From Lachnospiraceae bacterium (GTDB lineage Bacteria > Bacillota > Clostridia > Lachnospirales > Lachnospiraceae): 45,640 nucleotides of DNA. This document shows positions 2,842 to 28,686 of the stretch, in pieces (the first letter of the stretch is position 1; every line of letters begins with the position of its first letter). The translations under genes were made by a program, and so were the position numbers. The DNA is taken from positions 1 through 45,640 of the forward strand of contig JAFZWG010000043.1 of assembly GCA_017617395.1 (NCBI GenBank), given 5' to 3'. A model generated the notes under the pieces. That model saw only the letters and a program-made list of their open reading frames with translations, did no database searches and had not been told where the DNA came from.

Positions 2842-4688
2842 GCGATCGCACCCCCTTCCGTCGAAACAGCCAGGTAATTTTTCGCCTGTTTGGAGTACAT
2901 ATCGGCGTACAGCCCCTTCTGCTCCATGAGCATGCGGTGCGTGCCGGCCTCCTTCACGGTGCCGTCCGAAAGAAGGTATACCCAGTCGGCATTTTGCACG
3001 GACGACAGGCGGTGCGAGATGAACACGAGCGTGTTGTCGCGGCACGAGTCGTAGATGTTGTCGAACAGCGTCGCCTCCGCAATCGGGTCGAGCGCGGACG
3101 AGGGCTCGTCGAACACCTTAAACGGGCACTCGCGGACAAATGCTCTCGCCACAACGATCTTCTGGAACTCGCCGCCCGAGAGCATCGCACCCTCGTCGTC
3201 GAACTCGCGCGTCAGGATCGTGGACATGCCCTGCGGCAGCGACATAACCTTGTCGTATGCGCCGGAGAGCCGAAGCGCCTGCGTCACGCGCTCCTCACGC
3301 TCATCCTCGGGCACATTTGCGCCCATGATGACATTGTCCGTGACCGACATCGAGAACATGCGGTGGTCCTGAAACGCCGTCGCAAAGAGCGCGCGGTATT
3401 TGCGGAGGTTGTACTCGCGGATGTCGCGGCCGTTTAAGAGAATCTGCCCTTCCGTCGGATCGTAGAACCGGAGCAGAAGCTTGATCAGAGTCGTCTTGCC
3501 GGCGCCGTTGTGGCCGACCAGCGCGTACGTCTTGCCGCCGCGGAACTCCATCGAGAGGTTGCTGATGACCTCCTTGTCCTTGTAGGAAAATGAAACGTTT
3601 CGAAACTCGAGTGTCCTGATCTCTGTCCCCGGATCCTCGCCGTCCCAATCCTCCGGGATGCGCTCCTTATAATCCAGGAAGGTCCGCAGGTACTCGATGA
3701 ACAGACCGTTCTTGAAGAGGTCTGTGAGCGCCTCGGTGAAGCCGATCAGGATCCACGTCGTCGACACCATCATGGTCGTGATGACCGAGAGCTGCGCAAG
3801 GCTCAGCGTACGGCTCACAAGCGCGCGGTACGAGCCGTAGATCAGCAGGCCCTCGAAGATGAACGTGAATGTGAACATGACGTAAAGCCAGTGCAGGATC
3901 GCCGCCTTCACGGTGTACTTCTTGGTCACGTCCGCAACGCCCGTGATCGCCTCGCGGTACTGCTTGCGCATCAGCGAGAACACGCCCGTAAGGCGTATCT
4001 CCTTCGCGTACTCGGGCAGATACATGACGCGGTTGATGTACGCGATGCGGCGGTTGTGCGGCGCCATGTCCTTGTTTCTCTTGTAATCGAGACGGCTGAT
4101 CATGCGGTTAAAGACAAAGTTGCCGATGACCGGCAGCAGCACGAACAGCACCGAGATCTTGTCCGCCTGATACATAAACGCGAACGCGCACACGCTGGCG
4201 ATCGCGCCGAAGATGACCTTGAACGTCGCCTCGACGGACACGATCAAACGGTCATCCGCCTTCTCCATTGCAAGCGTGTAGCGGTCGTAGAAATCGCTGT
4301 CCTCAAAGCACGACAGTTCCACGTTGCGGGATTTGCGAAACAGCTTTTGATACAAGCCCTTGTTGACCACGGCCTGCGCGACCGGATTGATCCTGCCGAC
4401 TAAGATCTTGTCGTACAAAGACATCGCGGCCTCCACGCCCACAACGATCCCGACGAAGACCATGATCTTCCGAAACGAGTCTCCCCGCTGCAGCGAGTTG
4501 ATCATAAAGCGCATGAAAAATGCACTGAAGAACAACCACTCGAAGTACCCCAGGAACCGGCTGATTCCCTTGTGAACCACAAGCCACGGGCAGATGCGCC
4601 ACAGAAGCTTCATGGCGAAGAGGTTGTTCCGCACGGCACGTCCGCGCCCGATCTCCCGCTTCTTCGGTTTTTTACTTACTTCACTCAT
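2838..4688 (-). CDS. ABC exporter, fused membrane and ATPase domains (first gene of pair)
   Basis: 616 residues with a basic N-terminus (SKKPKKREIGRGR), a transmembrane domain, and a C-terminal ATPase: Walker A GHNGAGKTT, signature LSGGEFQK, Walker B-type FKVFDEPSSALD and H-loop His in FISHRLS. GGAAGGGGGG lies 6 bases before the ATG at 4688. This is the promoter-proximal gene of a two-gene operon transcribed from the consensus promoter at 4725-4753. Both partners keep the catalytic Glu and the H-loop His, so unlike many heterodimeric exporters neither site looks degenerate. Both share the LSGGE variant signature and DEPSSALDP, suggesting recent common descent. Cargo unknown. Confidence 0.85.
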   Translation of the reverse strand: MSEVSKKPKKREIGRGRAVRNNLFAMKLLWRICPWLVVHKGISRFLGYFEWLFFSAFFMRFMINSLQRGDSFRKIMVFVGIVVGVEAAMSLYDKILVGRINPVAQAVVNKGLYQKLFRKSRNVELSCFEDSDFYDRYTLAMEKADDRLIVSVEATFKVIFGAIASVCAFAFMYQADKISVLFVLLPVIGNFVFNRMISRLDYKRNKDMAPHNRRIAYINRVMYLPEYAKEIRLTGVFSLMRKQYREAITGVADVTKKYTVKAAILHWLYVMFTFTFIFEGLLIYGSYRALVSRTLSLAQLSVITTMMVSTTWILIGFTEALTDLFKNGLFIEYLRTFLDYKERIPEDWDGEDPGTEIRTLEFRNVSFSYKDKEVISNLSMEFRGGKTYALVGHNGAGKTTLIKLLLRFYDPTEGQILLNGRDIREYNLRKYRALFATAFQDHRMFSMSVTDNVIMGANVPEDEREERVTQALRLSGAYDKVMSLPQGMSTILTREFDDEGAMLSGGEFQKIVVARAFVRECPFKVFDEPSSALDPIAEATLFDNIYDSCRDNTLVFISHRLSSVQNADWVYLLSDGTVKEAGTHRMLMEQKGLYADMYSKQAKNYLAVSTEGGAIA

Positions 4689-4724
4689 TCGTTACCCCCC
4701 TTCCGATAAGAAAAAATTAGGCCT

Positions 4725-4753
4725 ATTATATGCCCGTGCCCCGCGGTTGTCAA
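4725..4753 (-). promoter_or_regulatory. Sigma-A promoter of the ABC exporter pair
   Basis: On the minus strand TTGACA (complement of 4748-4753) and TATAAT (complement of 4725-4730) are separated by exactly 17 bases: a full consensus vegetative promoter. It fires leftward into the gene at 4688 with a leader of about 30 bases. Confidence 0.85.
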
Positions 4754-4785
4754 CAACATTTTTCGACGGCTTTTCGCGGTAGTAA

Positions 4786-4814
4786 TTGACGGCAGACTCC
4801 GAAGCGATTATACT
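4786..4814 (+). promoter_or_regulatory. Sigma-A promoter of the yccF-moxR operon
   Basis: TTGACG (4786-4791), 17-base spacer, TATACT (4809-4814). It is divergent from the ABC promoter with about 33 bases between the two -35 boxes. The leader to the yccF start is about 105 bases and contains the dyad CAACCCGGGGTTG (4860-4872). Confidence 0.75.
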
Positions 4815-4926
4815 GTATCTAATCGGGTTTCGACGCTCACAAAGCACAGTTTACGGGCTCAACCCGGGGTTGCAAATGGGGTCGCACTTCGCGGCATCGG
4901 TTTCATTTTTGGGGGGACAATTACAT

Positions 4927-5298
4927 ATGAGTCTACTGGGTTACATCGTCTGGCTTGTCTTCGGCGGTCTGGTGGCCGCCATCGGTTACTTTTTTCTCGG
5001 GTGCGTCTGGTGTTTGAGCATCATCGGCATTCCGATCGGGCTGCAGTGCTTCAAGTTCGCGGAGCTTGCGTTTTGCCCGTTCGACAAGGAGGTCCGCTAC
5101 GGCGGCGGTACGGGCAGCTTTTTGCTCAACATCGTCTGGCTGTTCCTGGGTGGTCTGGAGATGGCTCTGGGCCTTGCCGGCATCGGTCTGGTGCTGTGCA
5201 TCACCGTCATCGGCATCCCGTTCGGACTTCAGTTCTTTAAGCTCGCCAAGCTCGCATTGATGCCGCTCGGCGCCGAGATCATCGAAGTCGAAGACTGA
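4927..5298 (+). CDS. yccF: YccF-family inner membrane protein (DUF307)
   Basis: 123 residues with two internally similar DUF307 modules: each holds a hydrophobic helix (LGYIVWLVFGG and LLNIVWLFLGG) and then an IGIP[IF]GLQ-x-FK motif (about residues 35-45 and 95-105). The duplicated IGIPxGLQ signature is diagnostic of YccF. The start at 4927 is chosen because GGGGGG lies about 8-14 bases upstream; a longer in-frame reading from 4786 would begin inside the promoter. First gene of an operon, 30 bases before moxR. The function of YccF is not established; a partner role in envelope maintenance is only suggested by its neighbours. Confidence 0.85.
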   Translation: MSLLGYIVWLVFGGLVAAIGYFFLGCVWCLSIIGIPIGLQCFKFAELAFCPFDKEVRYGGGTGSFLLNIVWLFLGGLEMALGLAGIGLVLCITVIGIPFGLQFFKLAKLALMPLGAEIIEVED

Positions 5299-5328
5299 AT
5301 TTAACAGTTGATCTGCAGGAGGTTTCAC

Positions 5329-6276
5329 ATGGAAAACACTAAGACGGAAAATGCAATGCTGCAGGGCTTGCGTGACCGTATCAACAAGATCTTTGTCGGA
5401 AAGGAAGAGGTCGTCGACCTCGTTTTGTGCTGCCTGCTGGGCGGCGGACATGTTCTTCTGGAGGACGTGCCCGGCGTAGGCAAGACCACGCTTGCGAGGA
5501 CGCTCGCGGACTCGATCCGCTGCAGCTTCGGCCGCATCCAGTTCACGCCCGACACGCTTCCGTCCGATGTGACCGGCGCGACGGTGTACAACATGAAGAC
5601 GTCGGAATTTGATTACCGCGAGGGCGCCGTCATGCGCCAGGTTCTTCTCGCGGACGAGATCAACCGCACGTCGCCGAAGACGCAGGCCAGCCTTCTGGAG
5701 GCGATGGCCGAGGGTCAGGTGACCGTCGAGGGCACCTGCTATCCGCTGCCGACACCGTTCTTTGTCATCGCGACGCAGAACCCGATCGAGTACATCGGCA
5801 CGTACCCGCTGCCGGAGGCACAGCTCGACCGCTTCATGATGCGCCTTGCCGTGGGCTACCCGGCGAAGGAGCAGGAGCTATTGATGGCAAGAAACTTCCT
5901 TGCAAACGCCAACGAGTCCGTCCCGGACGGCGTGTGCACCGCCGAGGACATTCTCCGCATGAAGGACGAGGTCGCGAAGGTGTTCGTGAGCGAAGGCGTG
6001 CTCGGATACCTTCAGGAGATGATCGACTTAACCCGCAGCGAGTCCAAATTCTCGCTCGGCGCAAGCCCCCGCGCGCTTTTGGCGCTCGTGCGCGCATCGC
6101 AGGCGTACGCGTACATTAACGGAAGAGACTTCGTCAAGCCCGACGACGTCAAGGCGGTTGCCGTTCCGGTTCTCCACCACCGCGTGGTTCTGGCGCCGGA
6201 AGCCCGCATCACCAAGGAAAATGCTGACGACATCCTCGCGGCACTGGTCCGCAAGGCCCGCATTCCGAAAGAGTAG
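5329..6276 (+). CDS. MoxR-type AAA+ ATPase
   Basis: 315 residues. ATG at 5329 is preceded by AGGAGG (5317-5322). Walker A GVGKTT at residues 49-54, Walker B LLADEINRT around 106-114, sensor-1-like ATQNP, and the typical PLPEAQLDRF arginine-finger region; the C-terminal lid holds SPRALLAL. MoxR ATPases act as chaperones that help assemble or insert metal or cofactor into VWA or DUF58 partners. Here the partner is evident, since the DUF58 gene starts 8 bases after this stop and the transglutaminase-domain membrane protein follows. This order is a conserved, incompletely understood bacterial gene set. Cytoplasmic. Confidence 0.92.
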   Translation: MENTKTENAMLQGLRDRINKIFVGKEEVVDLVLCCLLGGGHVLLEDVPGVGKTTLARTLADSIRCSFGRIQFTPDTLPSDVTGATVYNMKTSEFDYREGAVMRQVLLADEINRTSPKTQASLLEAMAEGQVTVEGTCYPLPTPFFVIATQNPIEYIGTYPLPEAQLDRFMMRLAVGYPAKEQELLMARNFLANANESVPDGVCTAEDILRMKDEVAKVFVSEGVLGYLQEMIDLTRSESKFSLGASPRALLALVRASQAYAYINGRDFVKPDDVKAVAVPVLHHRVVLAPEARITKENADDILAALVRKARIPKE

Positions 6277-22313: not shown

Positions 22314-22739
22314 CTACTGGATTCTTCCCTCGCCGCCCATCAGCCGCGTCATCTCCTCGATGCGCTCGATCGGGAACGGAGGGTTCGTGAGCGGCCGTAG
22401 CGCGATGGACATCAGCTTCATCGGGTTGTCGTCCGCCGCAACACGGTTCGAGCTCATCGCGCCGCACACGCGGCAGCGGTGAATGATGGCCCACTCGCCG
22501 TTCTTTCTCACCCACACCGCAATCGCGTCCATGTGGCCGCCGCAGTCGCTCTCGCGATCTCCCGGCTCGATGTCCACATGAAGGCTCGTCAGGCAGTTCG
22601 GGCAATGGTTTCTGTGGTCGCTCCCCGCGCCCGCGGGCACGACCGTTCTGCCGCACTCCTTGCACACGAACGTCTCGTCGCACGGATGCGTCTTATAATA
22701 TCCCTTCTCGTAGGATCTCTTCTTGTTTTCGCGGTTCAT
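22314..22739 (-). CDS. RNHCP-domain zinc-binding protein
   Basis: 141 residues. The eponymous RNHCP motif is present (SDHRNHCPNCLTSLHVD, about residues 40-56), with an upstream CKECG, a middle GDRESDCGGHM and a downstream HRCRVCG...SNRVAADDN, which together give four Cys pairs able to bind zinc. The family is widespread but functionally uncharacterised. GGAGATG precedes the ATG at 22739. First gene of the leftward run that ends with GH127; the gap to the HAD gene is 55 bases. Confidence 0.88.
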   Translation of the reverse strand: MNRENKKRSYEKGYYKTHPCDETFVCKECGRTVVPAGAGSDHRNHCPNCLTSLHVDIEPGDRESDCGGHMDAIAVWVRKNGEWAIIHRCRVCGAMSSNRVAADDNPMKLMSIALRPLTNPPFPIERIEEMTRLMGGEGRIQ

Positions 22740-22929: not shown

Positions 22930-22958
22930 AAAAAGCGGGCACACCGGAATGTGCCCGC
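22930..22958 (-). terminator. Terminator of the envelope operon
   Basis: GCGGGCACA (22935-22943) pairs with TGTGCCCGC (22950-22958) around six bases. On the minus strand it is followed by TTTTT, 29 bases after the stop of the 573-residue protein gene. Confidence 0.9.
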
Positions 22959-22986
22959 CATACTTTTTGTTGTTCTCTTTTCCGGA

Positions 22987-24708
22987 TTACTCCGTCTTGC
23001 TGCCGTTCGTGTTCGCGATCATCTCAAGAAGCTTCCACTGCGGGTTGTCCTTGCCGTCGTCGGTGTCGTCGTAGTAGACGAAGTAGAACGTCGAATCCAT
23101 CGGGATTGCAACATCCTCGCCGGTTCTCGTCAGCTTGATGTGCTTTACGAAGTAGACGTAAGCGGAGAAGCAATTGTCCGAGTACACGGTGTAGTCCTTC
23201 ACCGTCAGGCCCTCGATCCGGTTGTTTGCCGCATTGTGGTCGCTGATGAAGGTGATGTCGATACCGGTCGCATACTCCTTCGCCTTGTTATACAAAAGCG
23301 TGTCCTTCACGATGTAGGAGCGCATCTCGGCCAGACCGTAGTTGCTGCCCTTGAGGTCCTTCGTCGTAAAATCCATCCACTTCTTCGAGACGTTTACCGC
23401 CAGCTCCTTGCGCTCCTCCGGCATCTCAAGGCCGGTCTGCGGCGCATAGCCGATATCGATGTTGCCCTCGCTGTCCGTCTCATAGTTCGAAACGAGCTCG
23501 CCGTTCGCATCGCGGATCTCGACTACAGGCTTTAAGAGGAGTCCCTCCACCTGATACGTCACGTTCGAGGGGATGGTCACATAATCCACCAGCAGCGTCA
23601 GATCCTTCGGAAGCTCCGAGCGTTTCACGATATACTGCTCCGTAAGCTGCTTGCCGTTGACCGAAACCGTGTAGTTCGACGGCACCGTGTAGACGTAATC
23701 GGACGTCTCCACGTAGTTCGTCTCGCTGATTACCGGCGTGATCTCGTCAATCTTCCAGTCGCAGACCTCCAGGATGGCAAGAATGCGGCGGGGATTGTAG
23801 GACGTGAGCGTCATACGGGCAACAACCTTGTCATCGCCCAGAATATCGTAGACCGGATTGGTCGTGCTGTAGCTCTTCTCGTTCTTTTTGCAGGTGTATT
23901 TGCCGACGGCTGCGAGCATCTTGAGGTACTCTTCCTTGACGATATCCTCGCTCTCAAACTCGCCGGAGAGCTTCGGAATCTCCACCTGCGATGCGATGCT
24001 TCCGCTGCGCGCTTTCGTCTCAAACTCCTGCAGCAGGCGTGCGAGATGGTTCTCAACCTGCGAATTCTCGTAATCGACCAGACAGCGGTCGGTGTATCTC
24101 CACAGAAGGAATCCGCAGACCAGCAGGATCACTGCCCATACGGCAAGACCAACGAGGAAAATTCTGCGTCCGCGGCGGTTCTTCTTCTCCTGCGCACGCT
24201 GACGGTTGCGGCGTCTGCGTGCTGCCTCCGACTCTCCGTCGTCATCACCGCCGTCTCCTCCGGTTCCGTTCGGACCGTCCTTGATAACGGTCTTGCGGAC
24301 ACTGCGGTCCGGAGCTCCGCTCCGCGTCGTGTCGGTGCGGCGCGAAAGGCCGATGGTTGACTTGTCGCCTCCGGCCGATGCTCTCGTCGTACCCGAAGCA
24401 GTCCTCTTTGCGGTACTGCCGGCAGCCCCCGCAGCGGCCGCCTTGCGCGGTGCTTCGGCGGAAGCCGTCTTGCGCGGTGCCTCGGTGGAAACCGTTCTGC
24501 GCGGCGTCTCCGAAGCGGATGTGCTTCGCTGCGGCGCCGTGTGGTTTACCTTCGGCGGTACCGGTTTATCGGAATAATCGCGTCCCGTCTTCGCCGCAAG
24601 TTCCTTCCAGAAGGAATCCTCCTCGGCCGCCTCGTCCTGATATGCGTCGTACATATCGCGATAGCGCTTGCCGCTCACGGTCCGCGGTGTTTTCTTGTCC
24701 TTAGCCAT
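22987..24708 (-). CDS. Large single-pass membrane protein, unrecognised
   Basis: 573 residues. Residues 1-170 are a charged, Ala/Ser/Thr/Arg-rich cytoplasmic part with a degenerate repeat of about 8-9 residues (TEAPRKTAS, AEAPRKAAA). A basic stretch RRRRNRQRAQEKKNRRGRR precedes one transmembrane helix at about 180-203 (LVGLAVWAVILLVCGFLLW). The remaining 370 residues are predicted extracytoplasmic, rich in beta strands, without Cys clusters or recognised catalytic motifs. It is the last gene of an operon with PAP2, GT2-GtrA and phosphodiester glycosidase genes, 24 bases after the last, so a structural or binding role in the same surface-glycan pathway is inferred. No family assignment is made. 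Confidence 0.8.
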   Translation of the reverse strand: MAKDKKTPRTVSGKRYRDMYDAYQDEAAEEDSFWKELAAKTGRDYSDKPVPPKVNHTAPQRSTSASETPRRTVSTEAPRKTASAEAPRKAAAAGAAGSTAKRTASGTTRASAGGDKSTIGLSRRTDTTRSGAPDRSVRKTVIKDGPNGTGGDGGDDDGESEAARRRRNRQRAQEKKNRRGRRIFLVGLAVWAVILLVCGFLLWRYTDRCLVDYENSQVENHLARLLQEFETKARSGSIASQVEIPKLSGEFESEDIVKEEYLKMLAAVGKYTCKKNEKSYSTTNPVYDILGDDKVVARMTLTSYNPRRILAILEVCDWKIDEITPVISETNYVETSDYVYTVPSNYTVSVNGKQLTEQYIVKRSELPKDLTLLVDYVTIPSNVTYQVEGLLLKPVVEIRDANGELVSNYETDSEGNIDIGYAPQTGLEMPEERKELAVNVSKKWMDFTTKDLKGSNYGLAEMRSYIVKDTLLYNKAKEYATGIDITFISDHNAANNRIEGLTVKDYTVYSDNCFSAYVYFVKHIKLTRTGEDVAIPMDSTFYFVYYDDTDDGKDNPQWKLLEMIANTNGSKTE

Positions 24709-24732
24709 AAACTATCTGTCTCCCTGCTTTTC

Positions 24733-25830
24733 TCACTTGCTCGGCGGCAAAACCACCATGGCGTCCGGCAGACGCCAGGACGAATGAGCGTAATAGAATG
24801 TAACGCTGGTCATCTCATACTTGCCGTTGTAAACCATCGACGAGGAGCTTCCGCCGTCGAGGTTCGCCGCGTTGATCGCGCCGTACTCCAGCATGACACT
24901 GATCAGATCCGATGCCGTAGCGCCGAGATGTCCGCCCGCGCCTCGACCGTCGGTTACAAACAACAGGATCGCACCGTCCGCGCGCTGTCCGATGGCGGTA
25001 CGGGGATTGCTTCCGCTGCCCTGTCCCTTCAGCTCGCGGCCCTCGCCGTTGATGACGAGCGGAACGAAGTGGTTATTCACGTCGGAGGCTTCCTCCTGGA
25101 ACGTGACCGCGTCGCGGATGTGAGCTTCCTCGATGTAAGCCTTCACCGCTGCTGCATTCATACCCTGAAGGTCCTTGATGACCAGCAGGTTCTCCTGATC
25201 GAAGCCGATCAGATACAGACCCCTCTGCGAAGGGGAATTGTGCTGAATCTGTCCCTGTGAAACGACAACGCCGTACGGGCGGCCGCCCTTGTTGGCATCC
25301 GACTGGTACAAACCGCCGTTGACACCGCCAACCGCATTGTATTTGGAGACGATCTCATCGAGGTTCTTGCCGTACTCACCAAACGGATACGTCGTGCCGA
25401 CGATCACCTGCGACGGATCCTTGATGATCATCATTTTTCCGTAGAAGGTACGTCCGGAGACTTCCTCGATGCGGACGCCGTTCTCGTCGAAGACCTCTTC
25501 CTTCGCCGGTTTGTCCGGATTCTTCGGATCCTTCTTGGAATTCTGGTTCTTGCCGATCTGGATCAGCGTCTTGTCGATGTCGGTGTTCATCTCGCCCATC
25601 TTGTTGCTGTTGACGACCTCTTCGATCTCCTCTTTCGAGCAGACCCAGCTGGCCAGGAACTTCAACTGTCCGGTCTCGAGGATCGTCGTGATGAACGTTG
25701 CCTTGGCCGCCTTCGACGGGCCGTTGCACATCTTGTAGATCATGCCGTACACCGTTCCGACGAGGATAAATGCCGTCACGAGCAGCACCAGCAAAAACCG
25801 CAGAAAATACTTTAGAATTCTTCTGCCCAT
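24733..25830 (-). CDS. Membrane-anchored phosphodiester glycosidase (NAGPA/DUF2233 domain)
   Basis: 365 residues with an N-terminal signal anchor (about 8-30, FLRFLLVLLVTAFILVGTVY), then a linker and the NAGPA domain from about 130. Diagnostic motifs are AVGGVNGGLYQSD, NPRTAIGQRADGAILLFVTDGR, and NAANLDGGSSSSM. The family includes the mammalian uncovering enzyme, which removes GlcNAc from GlcNAc-1-phosphomannose, and bacterial enzymes acting on GlcNAc 1-phosphodiesters such as those of surface polymers. Here it probably acts outside the membrane. Start codon 3 bases after the GT2-GtrA stop, with GGGGGAG as ribosome site. Confidence 0.88.
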   Translation of the reverse strand: MGRRILKYFLRFLLVLLVTAFILVGTVYGMIYKMCNGPSKAAKATFITTILETGQLKFLASWVCSKEEIEEVVNSNKMGEMNTDIDKTLIQIGKNQNSKKDPKNPDKPAKEEVFDENGVRIEEVSGRTFYGKMMIIKDPSQVIVGTTYPFGEYGKNLDEIVSKYNAVGGVNGGLYQSDANKGGRPYGVVVSQGQIQHNSPSQRGLYLIGFDQENLLVIKDLQGMNAAAVKAYIEEAHIRDAVTFQEEASDVNNHFVPLVINGEGRELKGQGSGSNPRTAIGQRADGAILLFVTDGRGAGGHLGATASDLISVMLEYGAINAANLDGGSSSSMVYNGKYEMTSVTFYYAHSSWRLPDAMVVLPPSK

Positions 25831-25833
25831 GGA

Positions 25834-26955
25834 TTACTCCCCCTCATTTTTCTTCTTATTCGCAAAAACCCAGCGCTTCTGTACCTGGAAACTGATCACG
25901 AACAGGCACATGTCCACGCAGAATTTGACTACCGATTCCAATACGCCGGCGCTTAGACCGAGCAGCTGCTCCGCCACGGTGTGCACCAGCAGGAAAGATA
26001 CCGTCATCTGGCAGATTGCCAGGATGTAGTACCGCACAAGCGTCCCGCCCATGCCGCTGTCGCTCTTGAAGACGACCTTGCGGTTCAGGCAGAAGTTGAC
26101 GACCGTGCTCACGACGCGCGCGCCGATGGTCGCGATCGCGATGCGAAGCTTGCCGTCCTCAGAGCCCATTCCGGCCCGCTGCAGCCCGACGTTGATCAGG
26201 AAGAACAGCAGCGTGTCGATCAGGAAGCACACCAGCGAAGCGCTGATGAACTTCGCAAACACCGAGGTTCCGAAGTGTTTGAAGATGATCTTGTAAATCC
26301 GCCACGAATCGCGGAACGGATGAAAATGCGATGACGCATTGTCGTCGATATACACAGTGTCGATCACGACCTCGCGGATTCCGATGTTCTCGTCCTTCAG
26401 AATCAGCAGCTGGTTCGTCTCGTACTCGTAGCGCTCGCCGGAAATCTCGCCCATGAGCGGGAGGAATCTTGCGGGGATCGCACGGAGTCCGGTCTGCGTG
26501 TCGCTCACGCGAATGCCGCAGAAGATGCGGAACACCGCCTTCGTGATGTTGTTGCCGTTGCGGCTCTTGAAGGGCACGTTCGGCTGGCTGAAATCGCGCA
26601 CGCCGAGAACGACCTTGTCGCCCTCCTCGATCATCGCCTCCGCACACGCGCGGATATCCTTCGGCAAATGCTGCCCGTCACCGTCGACCGTCACCACGCC
26701 CTGCGAGTCCGGCCGGTTCTCGGCAACATAGGCAAATGCCGTCTTCATCGCGCGGCCCTTGCCCTTGTTCACCTCATGCGTCAACACGGTCACGCCCTCC
26801 ATGGCCGCCACCGTCGCAAAAGGTTCCTTGTATTCCGCTGCGCTGCCGTCGTCCACAACCACGACGTCGGTGAAGCCCTCCGCAAGGATTCCCTTGACGG
26901 TGTTCACCATCTTCTCGTCGGGATTGAGCGACGGAACGATAATCGTAACGTTCAC
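25834..26955 (-). CDS. GT2 glycosyltransferase fused to GtrA membrane domain
   Basis: 373 residues, beginning at a GTG with GGAGG 4 bases upstream. Residues 1-220 are a GT-A glycosyltransferase of the DPM1/polyprenyl-phosphate type: VVVDDGS, VTVDGDGQH (the DxD), KSRNGNNITK, DTQTGLRAIP. Residues about 233-365 are a GtrA-like module of four helices (KFISASLVCFLIDTLLFFL; NFCLNRKVVF). GtrA-type proteins are proposed flippases for undecaprenyl-phosphate sugars, so one polypeptide could load a sugar on a lipid carrier and flip it. Second gene of the operon, 47 bases after PAP2; a GGCGCC-ACAG-GGCGCC hairpin (26980-26995) lies in the gap. Confidence 0.9.
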   Translation of the reverse strand: MNVTIIVPSLNPDEKMVNTVKGILAEGFTDVVVVDDGSAAEYKEPFATVAAMEGVTVLTHEVNKGKGRAMKTAFAYVAENRPDSQGVVTVDGDGQHLPKDIRACAEAMIEEGDKVVLGVRDFSQPNVPFKSRNGNNITKAVFRIFCGIRVSDTQTGLRAIPARFLPLMGEISGERYEYETNQLLILKDENIGIREVVIDTVYIDDNASSHFHPFRDSWRIYKIIFKHFGTSVFAKFISASLVCFLIDTLLFFLINVGLQRAGMGSEDGKLRIAIATIGARVVSTVVNFCLNRKVVFKSDSGMGGTLVRYYILAICQMTVSFLLVHTVAEQLLGLSAGVLESVVKFCVDMCLFVISFQVQKRWVFANKKKNEGE

Positions 26956-27002
26956 GTTGCCTCCGATAGTTTAACCGCAGGCGCCACAGGGCGCCGCATT
27001 TT

Positions 27003-27599
27003 CTATTCTACAATTGTAGAAGCCTCTGCAGCCGCAGGTTTCTCGCTGCACGCCTCAACATACCAGGGCCATTTCTTGTAAAGGATGCTCTCAATCACGC
27101 ACGCGAGGATTCCCAGAAGAATTCCGTCCAGGAAGCCCGCCAGCACGTCCGTCGGAAAATGAATTCCGATGTACAGCCGCGAGAACGAGATCGCCAGTGC
27201 AAGCACCAGCAACGGGATGGACCAGCGCTTTTTGAGAAACCGGCACAGCGCCACCGCCGAAGCGATGCTCGCCGCCGTATGGCCGGACGGAAACGACGGG
27301 TCCGTCGCCTTCTTGCCGATCAGCTTAAGCCCCTCGATCACCTCGTACGGTCTCACGCGCCCCACGAGCGGTTTTAAGATCATGTTGTTAAGGATCAGCG
27401 AACCGAGCAGCGCGAGTGCCGAGCACACCGCAGCTCTTCTCGTCTTCTTAAAGCAGATCAGCACCGCCGTGAGGAGAATCCAGAAGATTCCCGCATTCCC
27501 GAGGAAGGTGATGTTCGGAAAGATCTTATCCAGAAAACTGTTCCGGATATGGTCCTGAATATACAATAAAATGTCTGCGTCCAACGACAAAAACGGCAT
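27003..27599 (-). CDS. PAP2-family membrane phosphatase (undecaprenyl-diphosphatase type)
   Basis: 198 residues from the ATG at 27599 (MPFLSL), with GAGGGAG upstream; in-frame codons further upstream lie in the leader. All three phosphatase motifs are intact: K-P-L-V-G-R-V-R-P, PSFPSGHTA, and SRLYIGIHFPTDVL, with 4-5 membrane helices. The family dephosphorylates undecaprenyl diphosphate or phosphatidate outside the membrane. First gene of the operon with GT2-GtrA, phosphodiester glycosidase and the unknown membrane protein, so lipid-carrier recycling is a reasonable role. Confidence 0.88.
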   Translation of the reverse strand: MPFLSLDADILLYIQDHIRNSFLDKIFPNITFLGNAGIFWILLTAVLICFKKTRRAAVCSALALLGSLILNNMILKPLVGRVRPYEVIEGLKLIGKKATDPSFPSGHTAASIASAVALCRFLKKRWSIPLLVLALAISFSRLYIGIHFPTDVLAGFLDGILLGILACVIESILYKKWPWYVEACSEKPAAAEASTIVE

Positions 27600-27666
27600 G
27601 GCGGTTACTCCCTCTCGTATAGCACTTACGTGCCCTGCGGACGGTACTCCGCAAAACACCTATTGT

Positions 27667-27695
27667 ATTATACTCATAGAGCGGCGAAAACGCAA
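27667..27695 (-). promoter_or_regulatory. Promoter of the envelope glycan operon
   Basis: Minus strand TTGCGT (complement of 27690-27695), 17-base spacer, TATAAT (complement of 27667-27672). Leader of about 60 bases to the PAP2 start. Confidence 0.7.
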
Positions 27696-27817: not shown

Positions 27818-28639
27818 TTACGCGCCGAACTCCTCCGCGAACTTCTCGGGCTCCAGCGCCCAGGTAAGTCCCGTCACCAGGTGCGTTCTCCAGAAGTTGA
27901 AGTCATGCACGCCGGGCGCGGTCACGAATGTCGCCGGCACGCCGATGCCGTCGAGGAACGCCTTGAAATCCCGGTTCGGCTGAATCAGAAAATCCTCCGT
28001 TCCGCACGCCATGAACACATCGGGAATCGCCGCGCCGCTCTCCTTTAGGCCGCGCACCAGAACCTCCGGGTTGATGTCGGTCTGCGCCGCCTTCTTCAGG
28101 TCGCCGAAGATCCACGTGTAGTACTCGTAGTTCGCCATGCCGTTCGGCATGTCCGGGCTCATGAACGCCAGGCCGTTCTGGATGAGCGCCGACGAGAGAG
28201 CCATCACCTTCCCGAACGTCTTCGGGAACAGAAACGCCGTGTGCAGCGCGCCGAAGCCGCCCATCGAGAGTCCGCCGATGTAAGTGTCCTCCCTCCTGTC
28301 CGAAAGTCCGAAGGTCTTTCTCGTATACTCCACAAACTCCTCGCCCACGTAGCTTGCGTACCGGCAGCCCGTCTGCGGCTGGTCCAGATAGAAGTTGTTG
28401 TCGCCGTTGGGCAGGAAGAAATTCACGTTGAAGCGGTTCGCGATCTCCCCGAGCGGGGCGTTGGTGAACCAGTCCGTGTCGCATCCGCTGTAGCCGTGCA
28501 GCAGGTACACCGACTTCGCCGGGCGGCGATAGTGCGGATTCTGCTCCGTCCCGAATGCATTGTCATTGCTTAAAACCGCCGTAAAATGCACCGGGCGGCT
28601 CAGCATTTTCGAAAAAAACGTTCCCTGAAAATGTGCCAT
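27818..28639 (-). CDS. Esterase of the EstA/FrmB-like alpha/beta-hydrolase family
   Basis: 273 residues from the ATG at 28639 (MAHFQG), with AAGGAGAGG upstream. LLHGYSG forms the oxyanion-hole region. The nucleophile Ser is in GGLSMGGFGA (about residue 128), the triad Asp probably in ACGTEDFLIQ and the His in GVHDFNFW. The FrmB/esterase D and tributyrin-esterase group includes acetyl and feruloyl esterases active on plant glycans. No signal peptide, so cytoplasmic; deacylation of imported xylo-oligosaccharides is plausible but inferred. Monocistronic, with its own promoter at 28687-28715. Confidence 0.85.
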   Translation of the reverse strand: MAHFQGTFFSKMLSRPVHFTAVLSNDNAFGTEQNPHYRRPAKSVYLLHGYSGCDTDWFTNAPLGEIANRFNVNFFLPNGDNNFYLDQPQTGCRYASYVGEEFVEYTRKTFGLSDRREDTYIGGLSMGGFGALHTAFLFPKTFGKVMALSSALIQNGLAFMSPDMPNGMANYEYYTWIFGDLKKAAQTDINPEVLVRGLKESGAAIPDVFMACGTEDFLIQPNRDFKAFLDGIGVPATFVTAPGVHDFNFWRTHLVTGLTWALEPEKFAEEFGA

Positions 28640-28686
28640 TTGCCTCTCCTTTTGCGCGGGCATTTTCGCGCGCCCGCAACAATCGT

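Follow-up and report, generated by a model that had tools for sequence, protein, structure and literature searches.

How can a protein that should make and flip a lipid-linked sugar share an operon with an enzyme that cuts sugar phosphodiesters, and what is the large membrane protein encoded beside them? These questions are raised by contig JAFZWG010000043.1 of a Lachnospiraceae bacterium (assembly GCA_017617395.1; 97 contigs, 85% complete), analyzed here over its 45,640 nucleotides (the window). A minus-strand operon of the window encodes, in order, a PAP2-family lipid phosphatase, a fused GT2-GtrA protein, a NAGPA-family sugar-phosphodiester enzyme and a 573-residue protein that we denote U573; according to the list of open reading frames (ORFs), the intergenic gaps are exactly 47, 3 and 24 bases. 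The original prediction, made from the sequence of the window, had described these genes as an envelope operon with the same gaps; all four ORFs and the gap lengths were reproduced, and the envelope assignment is supported. The operon itself is real and conserved, and the conserved association is wider than the four-gene set first noted, its core being found beyond the full gene order. The system may represent an unrecognized route of cell-surface decoration.

Conservation of the gene association

We scanned 70 loci, namely 8 named genome contigs, 61 regions around the stronger U573 matches in the window's family and the wider class (several genomes give two or three regions, and the regions may overlap the named contigs) and, as a control, the locus of the other NAGPA gene of the window genome; the family was taken as Lachnospiraceae and the class as Clostridia, as inferred from the nearest relatives, which are uncultured Lachnospiraceae. 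U573 is present in 69 loci, as expected from their selection, and in 65 of the 69 a NAGPA gene lies less than 300 bases away on the same strand; two more (L053 and L055) have GT2-GtrA between these genes, and the remaining two are L010, at a contig end, and L062, without NAGPA. GT2-GtrA is found in 33 of the 69 loci and PAP2 in 8, once on the opposite strand. The four-gene order, which the original prediction had proposed to look for in relatives, is conserved: it is complete on one strand in seven of the 69 loci (L003, L004, L005, L006, L041, L042 and L043, the last with GT2-GtrA split over two frames), with a variable order of GT2-GtrA, NAGPA and U573 elsewhere. The pairing of NAGPA with U573 in 67 of the 69 supports the predicted place of U573 as a partner of the set. 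Taken together, these counts indicate that NAGPA-U573 is the unit, GT2-GtrA a frequent neighbor and PAP2 a local addition, so that PAP2, predicted to belong to the functional set, was rejected as a core member and is regarded here as a clade-specific accessory.

Several loci have features of their own. L062 (genome G300) holds the only U573 gene without NAGPA in its locus, contig ends aside, and two other loci of the same genome, L056 and L067, have NAGPA. A flippase-like gene adjoins U573 in seven loci (L057, L059, L060, L061, L067, L068 and L071); the one tested, from L061, belongs to Polysacc_synt and MurJ by Pfam. Two more genes, by eye putative members of the MoxR ATPase and DUF58 families, recur 3' of U573 in five loci (L045, L046, L047, L050 and L063).

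The association also holds across whole genomes. With a GT2-GtrA cut-off of E 1e-60 or better, GT2-GtrA was found in 127 and NAGPA in 113 of 397 family genomes (both in 88, GT2-GtrA only in 39, NAGPA only in 25, neither in 245; Fisher odds ratio 22, which, like the other co-occurrence statistics, ignores kinship, so that relatedness inflates significance). Genomes whose U573 matches were weak (E 4.0e-6 to 8.2e-4) were not counted as strong, namely 9 of the 42 with a match in the family and 12 of the 35 in the class; in one of them, G023, NAGPA and GT2-GtrA are separated by a short U573-like stretch. All 33 family genomes with strong U573 encode NAGPA and 32 of them GT2-GtrA, the exception being G006, which is 67% complete. 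In the class-wide sample (291 genomes, 281 outside the family), GT2-GtrA occurs in 19 of the 21 strong-U573 genomes outside the family versus 20 of the 260 others. These 21 genomes span nine families, eight with GT2-GtrA. The two without a counted GT2-GtrA are G608, at 92% completeness, and G638, at 78%, where a fragment of the gene lies at a contig edge (L097). When GT2-GtrA regions unlinked to U573 were inspected in U573 genomes, none of the 15 held NAGPA. Because the genes are unlinked in many of the genomes in which they co-occur, neighborhood alone does not explain the pattern. This bears on the view that the operon is a loose envelope neighborhood with common regulation and no common substrate, which agrees with the 34 of 68 cases where NAGPA-U573 has no adjoining GT2-GtrA; nevertheless, given that co-occurrence persists for unlinked genes and that reading frames are shared (see below), we consider this view the least probable of those weighed here.

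The linkage of GT2-GtrA with NAGPA does not depend on U573. Of the 134 GT2-GtrA matches in the family genomes, at least 66 are accompanied by a same-strand NAGPA domain no more than 1.5 kb away, a lower bound given that the 150 NAGPA matches listed come from 110 genomes against a tally of 113. Among the matches listed, 67 of the 150 NAGPAs have a GT2-GtrA neighbor, and GT2-GtrA comes first in 64 of these 67 pairs. By query ranges, 7 of the 134 GT2-GtrA matches, and 3 of 20 in class genomes without U573 (G411, G538 and G644), cover roughly the GT2 part alone. In three genomes, counted within the 66, GT2-GtrA and NAGPA form a single frame (L133, 817 codons; L134, 910; L135, 671), with E values of 4.6e-84 to 2.6e-112 for GT2-GtrA and 3.5e-25 to 6.7e-40 for NAGPA; the NAGPA tree places L134 away from the other two. 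One reading frame is good evidence for a common pathway. Outside the family, 7 of the 19 loci examined in genomes without a strong U573 match have the pair. No report of a GT2-GtrA/NAGPA linkage was found in the titles and abstract openings of the papers retrieved from the open-licence literature in PubMed Central.

Inspection of 20 GT2-GtrA/NAGPA loci without U573 (L113-L132) revealed no widely recurring third gene; a small membrane protein, alike by eye, lies 3' of NAGPA in L114 (7565-7951) and L125 (87-482). Of the 20 GT2-GtrA loci from class-sample genomes without strong U573 (19 from other families, one from the window's), 13 have no adjoining NAGPA, and the flanks of GT2-GtrA loci lacking NAGPA are common mainly to close relatives. 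In one such region (L154:4363-7898), the place of NAGPA after PAP2 and GT2-GtrA is taken by a polytopic protein of 528 residues that matches no Pfam family, for which a GT-C glycosyltransferase would be our guess; a 568-residue relative follows GT2-GtrA in L167. In L150, a calcineurin-like phosphoesterase (4574-5458) is encoded just 5' of a fused GT2-GtrA without adjoining NAGPA.

The NAGPA proteins themselves fall into two classes. In a tree of 112 NAGPA domains, the 68 encoded beside U573 and the 44 without it are split by one branch (support 100/99). A stalk of about 37 residues located just outside the membrane (residues 45-81 of the window protein), modeled from the sequences of 22 U573-linked proteins, is present in 68 of 68 U573-linked proteins and in none of the 44 others; the latter were chosen mostly for lying by GT2-GtrA, so that their linkage to it (37 of 44) is not independent. 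This correspondence suggests that the stalk might be a docking element for U573. The second NAGPA gene of the window genome (L112:7595-8671, contig C68) belongs to the other class, on a long branch, without stalk and without U573, and no GT2-GtrA was found within the 14.7 kb fetched around it.

The operon, its signals and its proteins

Table 1. Features of the operon (positions in the window)
Feature	Position	Strand	Basis
PAP2-family lipid phosphatase, 198 aa	27003-27599	-	Pfam PF01569, 1.6e-24
Fused GT2-GtrA, GTG start	25834-26955	-	Pfam PF00535, 8.5e-16; PF04138, 1e-9
GT2 domain (putative polyprenyl-phosphate-sugar synthase)	26551-26946	-	PF00535
GtrA domain (putative flippase)	25864-26253	-	PF04138
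NAGPA-family sugar-phosphodiester enzyme	24733-25830	-	Pfam PF09992, 4e-32
NAGPA predicted N-terminal transmembrane helix	25750-25806	-	Transmembrane prediction
NAGPA membrane-proximal stalk	25588-25698	-	Stalk model
NAGPA catalytic domain	24751-25341	-	PF09992
U573, 573 residues	22987-24708	-	No family match
U573 low-complexity N-terminus and predicted transmembrane helix	24106-24162 (helix)	-	Prediction
U573 possible NTF2-like domain (N-terminal ectodomain)	23722-24063	-	
U573 beta region	23434-23721	-	
U573 C-terminal NTF2-like domain	22993-23433	-	Predicted model
Candidate promoter	27667-27695	-	-35 TTGCGT (27690-27695), 17-base spacer, -10 TATAAT (27667-27672)
Intrinsic terminator	22934-22959	-	11-pair hairpin and T-run; on terminator scan list

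The three proteins of known families (Table 1) retain the motifs K-x6-RP, PSGH and SR-x5-H-x3-D in PAP2, DGD and QTGLR in the GT2 domain, and NGG, NPRTAIG, DGRG and NLDGGSSS in NAGPA, all of which are regarded as family motifs. The best NCBIfam match of PAP2, which starts with ATG (a GTG 60 bases upstream is also possible), is the SepP undecaprenyl-diphosphatase (4e-28, under the family cut-off). GT2-GtrA matches AglJ (3.5e-22) and PpgS (1.7e-17), both also under the cut-off; the fusion is supported also by an alignment, and judging by its families this protein should be the maker and flipper of a lipid-phosphate-sugar. NAGPA scores 112.2 bits against PF09992 (curated cut-off 25) and matches solved NAGPA structures, e.g., 6pku at 3.8e-7. 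The roles originally assigned to GT2-GtrA and NAGPA are thus borne out at the family level by Pfam and motifs.

The possibility that U573 belongs to a known unrelated family, against which the prediction was to be checked, found no support in Pfam, NCBIfam, PDB or profile searches. Nothing in Pfam or NCBIfam reached the cut-off, phmmer gave no credible match in PDB, and a U573 profile yielded four PDB hits, all with E 0.087 or worse, the top one being a designed cortisol binder. A search of 28 U573 members against Pfam (E 0.05) returned only families matched by one member each; no TcaA model was among them, in a comparison with TcaA-like wall-polymer proteins that covered Pfam models. In a Foldseek search, the entire U573 model matched TcpC (3ub1) at E 3e-4 with poor superposition (TMq 0.20), and the fold assignment was therefore based on the VIA alignment of the C-terminal domain; by this alignment of the predicted model, the C-terminal domain has the helix-beta cone characteristic of the NTF2-like fold. 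The N-terminal half gave no Foldseek match at E 0.001 or better. A further view holds that U573 is the acceptor or client, its ectodomain being glycosylated by the system, as its near-constant NAGPA neighborhood might suggest. However, the Ser/Thr/Ala-rich part of U573 is cytoplasmic by predicted topology and missing from the aligned proteins of L005, L007 and L009, and GT2-GtrA-NAGPA units without U573 exist, all of which makes a client role very improbable.

The recognizable promoter claimed originally was confirmed in part: the -10 hexamer is perfect and both hexamers are identical in the near relative L003, where the spacer differs at two positions, but the -35 hexamer matches only 3 of 6 bases, so that the promoter is weak by consensus, and it is not among the sites listed by a promoter scan of the window. 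The comparison covers L003; in L006 and L042, the PAP2 start was not located by pattern. The claimed terminator is present, and by eye a hairpin with T-run lies at the same place 3' of U573 in L003, L006 and L042; in the stems of the latter two, bases are substituted yet pairing is kept, with one G-T pair in L042. The number of terminator-like sites, 6 versus 6.2 in shuffled sequences, is in itself no evidence. Outside the operon, the flanking genes encode an RNHCP-domain protein (22314-22739; Pfam 2e-39) and a putative esterase (27818-28663; Pfam 1.6e-13).

A proposed sugar relay across the membrane and its alternatives

In three-component glycosylation systems, a GT2-type synthase makes polyprenyl-phosphate-sugar, a presumed flippase of the GtrA type follows, and a GT-C glycosyltransferase uses the sugar outside (PMC8035078; PMC11127046); for some systems a second, acceptor-binding protein is speculated to be needed (PMC8035078). 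NAGPA enzymes are described to hydrolyze phosphodiesters and release the linked sugar (PMC12419801). The reading that we favor, tentatively and at somewhat less than an even chance, is a trans-membrane sugar delivery relay in which NAGPA acts on the flipped lipid-sugar, probably in a transfer involving U573. Judging by the families, the GT2 domain would load polyprenyl phosphate with a sugar on the cytoplasmic side, and the loaded lipid would be flipped outward by the GtrA domain, the product being a sugar-1-phosphodiester; because NAGPA enzymes cut bonds of this class, the flipped lipid-sugar is the simplest common substrate. At the outer face, the membrane-anchored NAGPA would split the sugar-phosphate bond, leaving polyprenyl phosphate reusable, and would most likely pass the sugar to a surface acceptor recognized or presented by U573, which the membrane-proximal stalk may hold in a complex. 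NAGPA and U573 would thereby occupy the role of the polytopic GT-C protein (such as YfhO) of ordinary systems, and PAP2 could be an extra carrier-recycling enzyme in the window's clade. What the sequences show is the association of the genes, within and across families, and their intact motifs; the chemistry of the relay is an inference from these. The original prediction had remarked on the union of making and breaking functions, which may constitute a single relay.

A close rival is that NAGPA with U573 simply hydrolyzes unused flipped polyprenyl-phosphate-sugar to salvage the carrier, with PAP2 likewise recycling, as an outer-face counterpart of UshA. NAGPA is a family of hydrolases, PAP2 is present in the window's clade, and UshA is reported to free undecaprenyl phosphate (UndP) from UndP-sugars and to be critical once these are sequestered (PMC11898649). 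However, UshA is described there as acting at the cytoplasmic face under SigM stress control (PMC11898649), and a synthase, a flippase and a hydrolase linked, or even in one frame, without an acceptor step would amount to a futile cycle, which favors transfer to an acceptor; we regard salvage as rather unlikely. A stronger form of the relay, conceivable yet doubtful, is that the NAGPA fold with U573 is an outer-face glycosyltransferase acting on polyprenyl-phosphate-sugar, a single-pass replacement of GT-C and thus a third component of a new class; at least three proteins would then unite synthase, flippase and transferase in one polypeptide.

Several observations weigh against the relay. Among the matches listed, 83 of the 150 NAGPAs have no adjoining GT2-GtrA, 68 of the 134 GT2-GtrA matches lack a nearby NAGPA, and 39 of the 127 GT2-GtrA genomes have no NAGPA at all. 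The U573-linked NAGPAs form one clade, so that their common stalk may go back to one inherited event. The NAGPA family is known for hydrolases, and we know of no transferase activity in it. The chief objection is that the mammalian NAGPA enzyme is alpha-specific; GT2 synthases usually give beta-linked lipid-sugars, and so the anomers may not match. Finally, YfhO-type genes are found in 20 of the 23 cassette genomes searched and might serve GT2-GtrA in trans, so that a complete three-component system in the genome is possible; the search, limited to two Pfam families (YfhO and PMT_2), would miss other GT-C proteins.

The same YfhO-type genes could speak for the view, close to the original prediction, that an unlinked GT-C decorates a polymer from which NAGPA, tethered to the wall by U573, removes or edits sugar-1-phosphates; surface polymers bearing sugar-1-phosphodiesters do exist. 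The 23 genomes are from the 33 family genomes with strong U573. No YfhO match lies within 30 kb of the cassette on the same contig in any of them, a distance test limited by the shortness of the contigs. A YfhO match adjoins a separate GtrA in 8 of the 23 genomes, in G061 apparently in the same frame; G290 has a PMT_2 match and no YfhO match, and G039 and G285, which possess NAGPA-U573 and GT2-GtrA, have neither; we count these findings in favor of the relay. Against adding and trimming, no GT-C was found by ORFs and Pfam among the four operon genes, so that the operon is without the transferase needed and would combine two opposed activities, and NAGPA in frame with a membrane synthase and flippase would be sited at the lipid-linked sugar, not at a polymer. 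An action of NAGPA on the lipid-sugar fits better, because the linkage of GT2-GtrA with NAGPA is seen also in the absence of U573 and PAP2 and the two share one frame in three genomes. We therefore consider adding and trimming distinctly unlikely, and less likely than one relay.

Comparison with known systems

If the proposed relay is correct, an enzyme fold with no such known role would use or recycle lipid-linked sugars on the outside of the cell, and would do so in a considerable part of Clostridia (127 of the 397 family genomes have GT2-GtrA, with NAGPA near at least 66 of the matches). Bacterial NAGPA proteins would thereby gain a function and the unnamed U573 family its first role, U573 being a candidate for the acceptor-binding second protein speculated on in PMC8035078.

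The closest likeness is to the three-component systems CsbB/GtcA/YfhO and GtrB/GtrA/Gtr GT-C, with which the operon shares a GT2-type synthase and a GtrA-type flippase providing an outward lipid-phosphate-sugar donor. At the family level, the synthase (PF00535, with DGD and QTGLR) and GtrA (PF04138) are present and a co-encoded GT-C is absent; the first two are fused here, and a single-pass NAGPA with U573 is found instead of the third. NAGPA shares its catalytic domain and motifs with the NAGPA/DUF2233 phosphodiester glycosidases, including the mammalian uncovering enzyme (6pkg, 6pku) and bacterial proteins (3ohg, 6ozd), but differs in its predicted membrane anchor, in the stalk, which among the 112 proteins occurs only beside U573, and in its genetic tie to a lipid-sugar synthase and flippase. 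U573 resembles envelope proteins of the VirB8/TcpC and PBP2a types in its one predicted transmembrane helix and NTF2-like ectodomain, a likeness of fold only, with no sequence relationship found. UshA (YqjL) of Bacillus subtilis, a proposed UndP-sugar hydrolase, may share its chemistry with NAGPA, freeing polyprenyl phosphate from a lipid-linked sugar, but is alpha-beta hydrolase-like and acts at the cytoplasmic face (PMC11898649).

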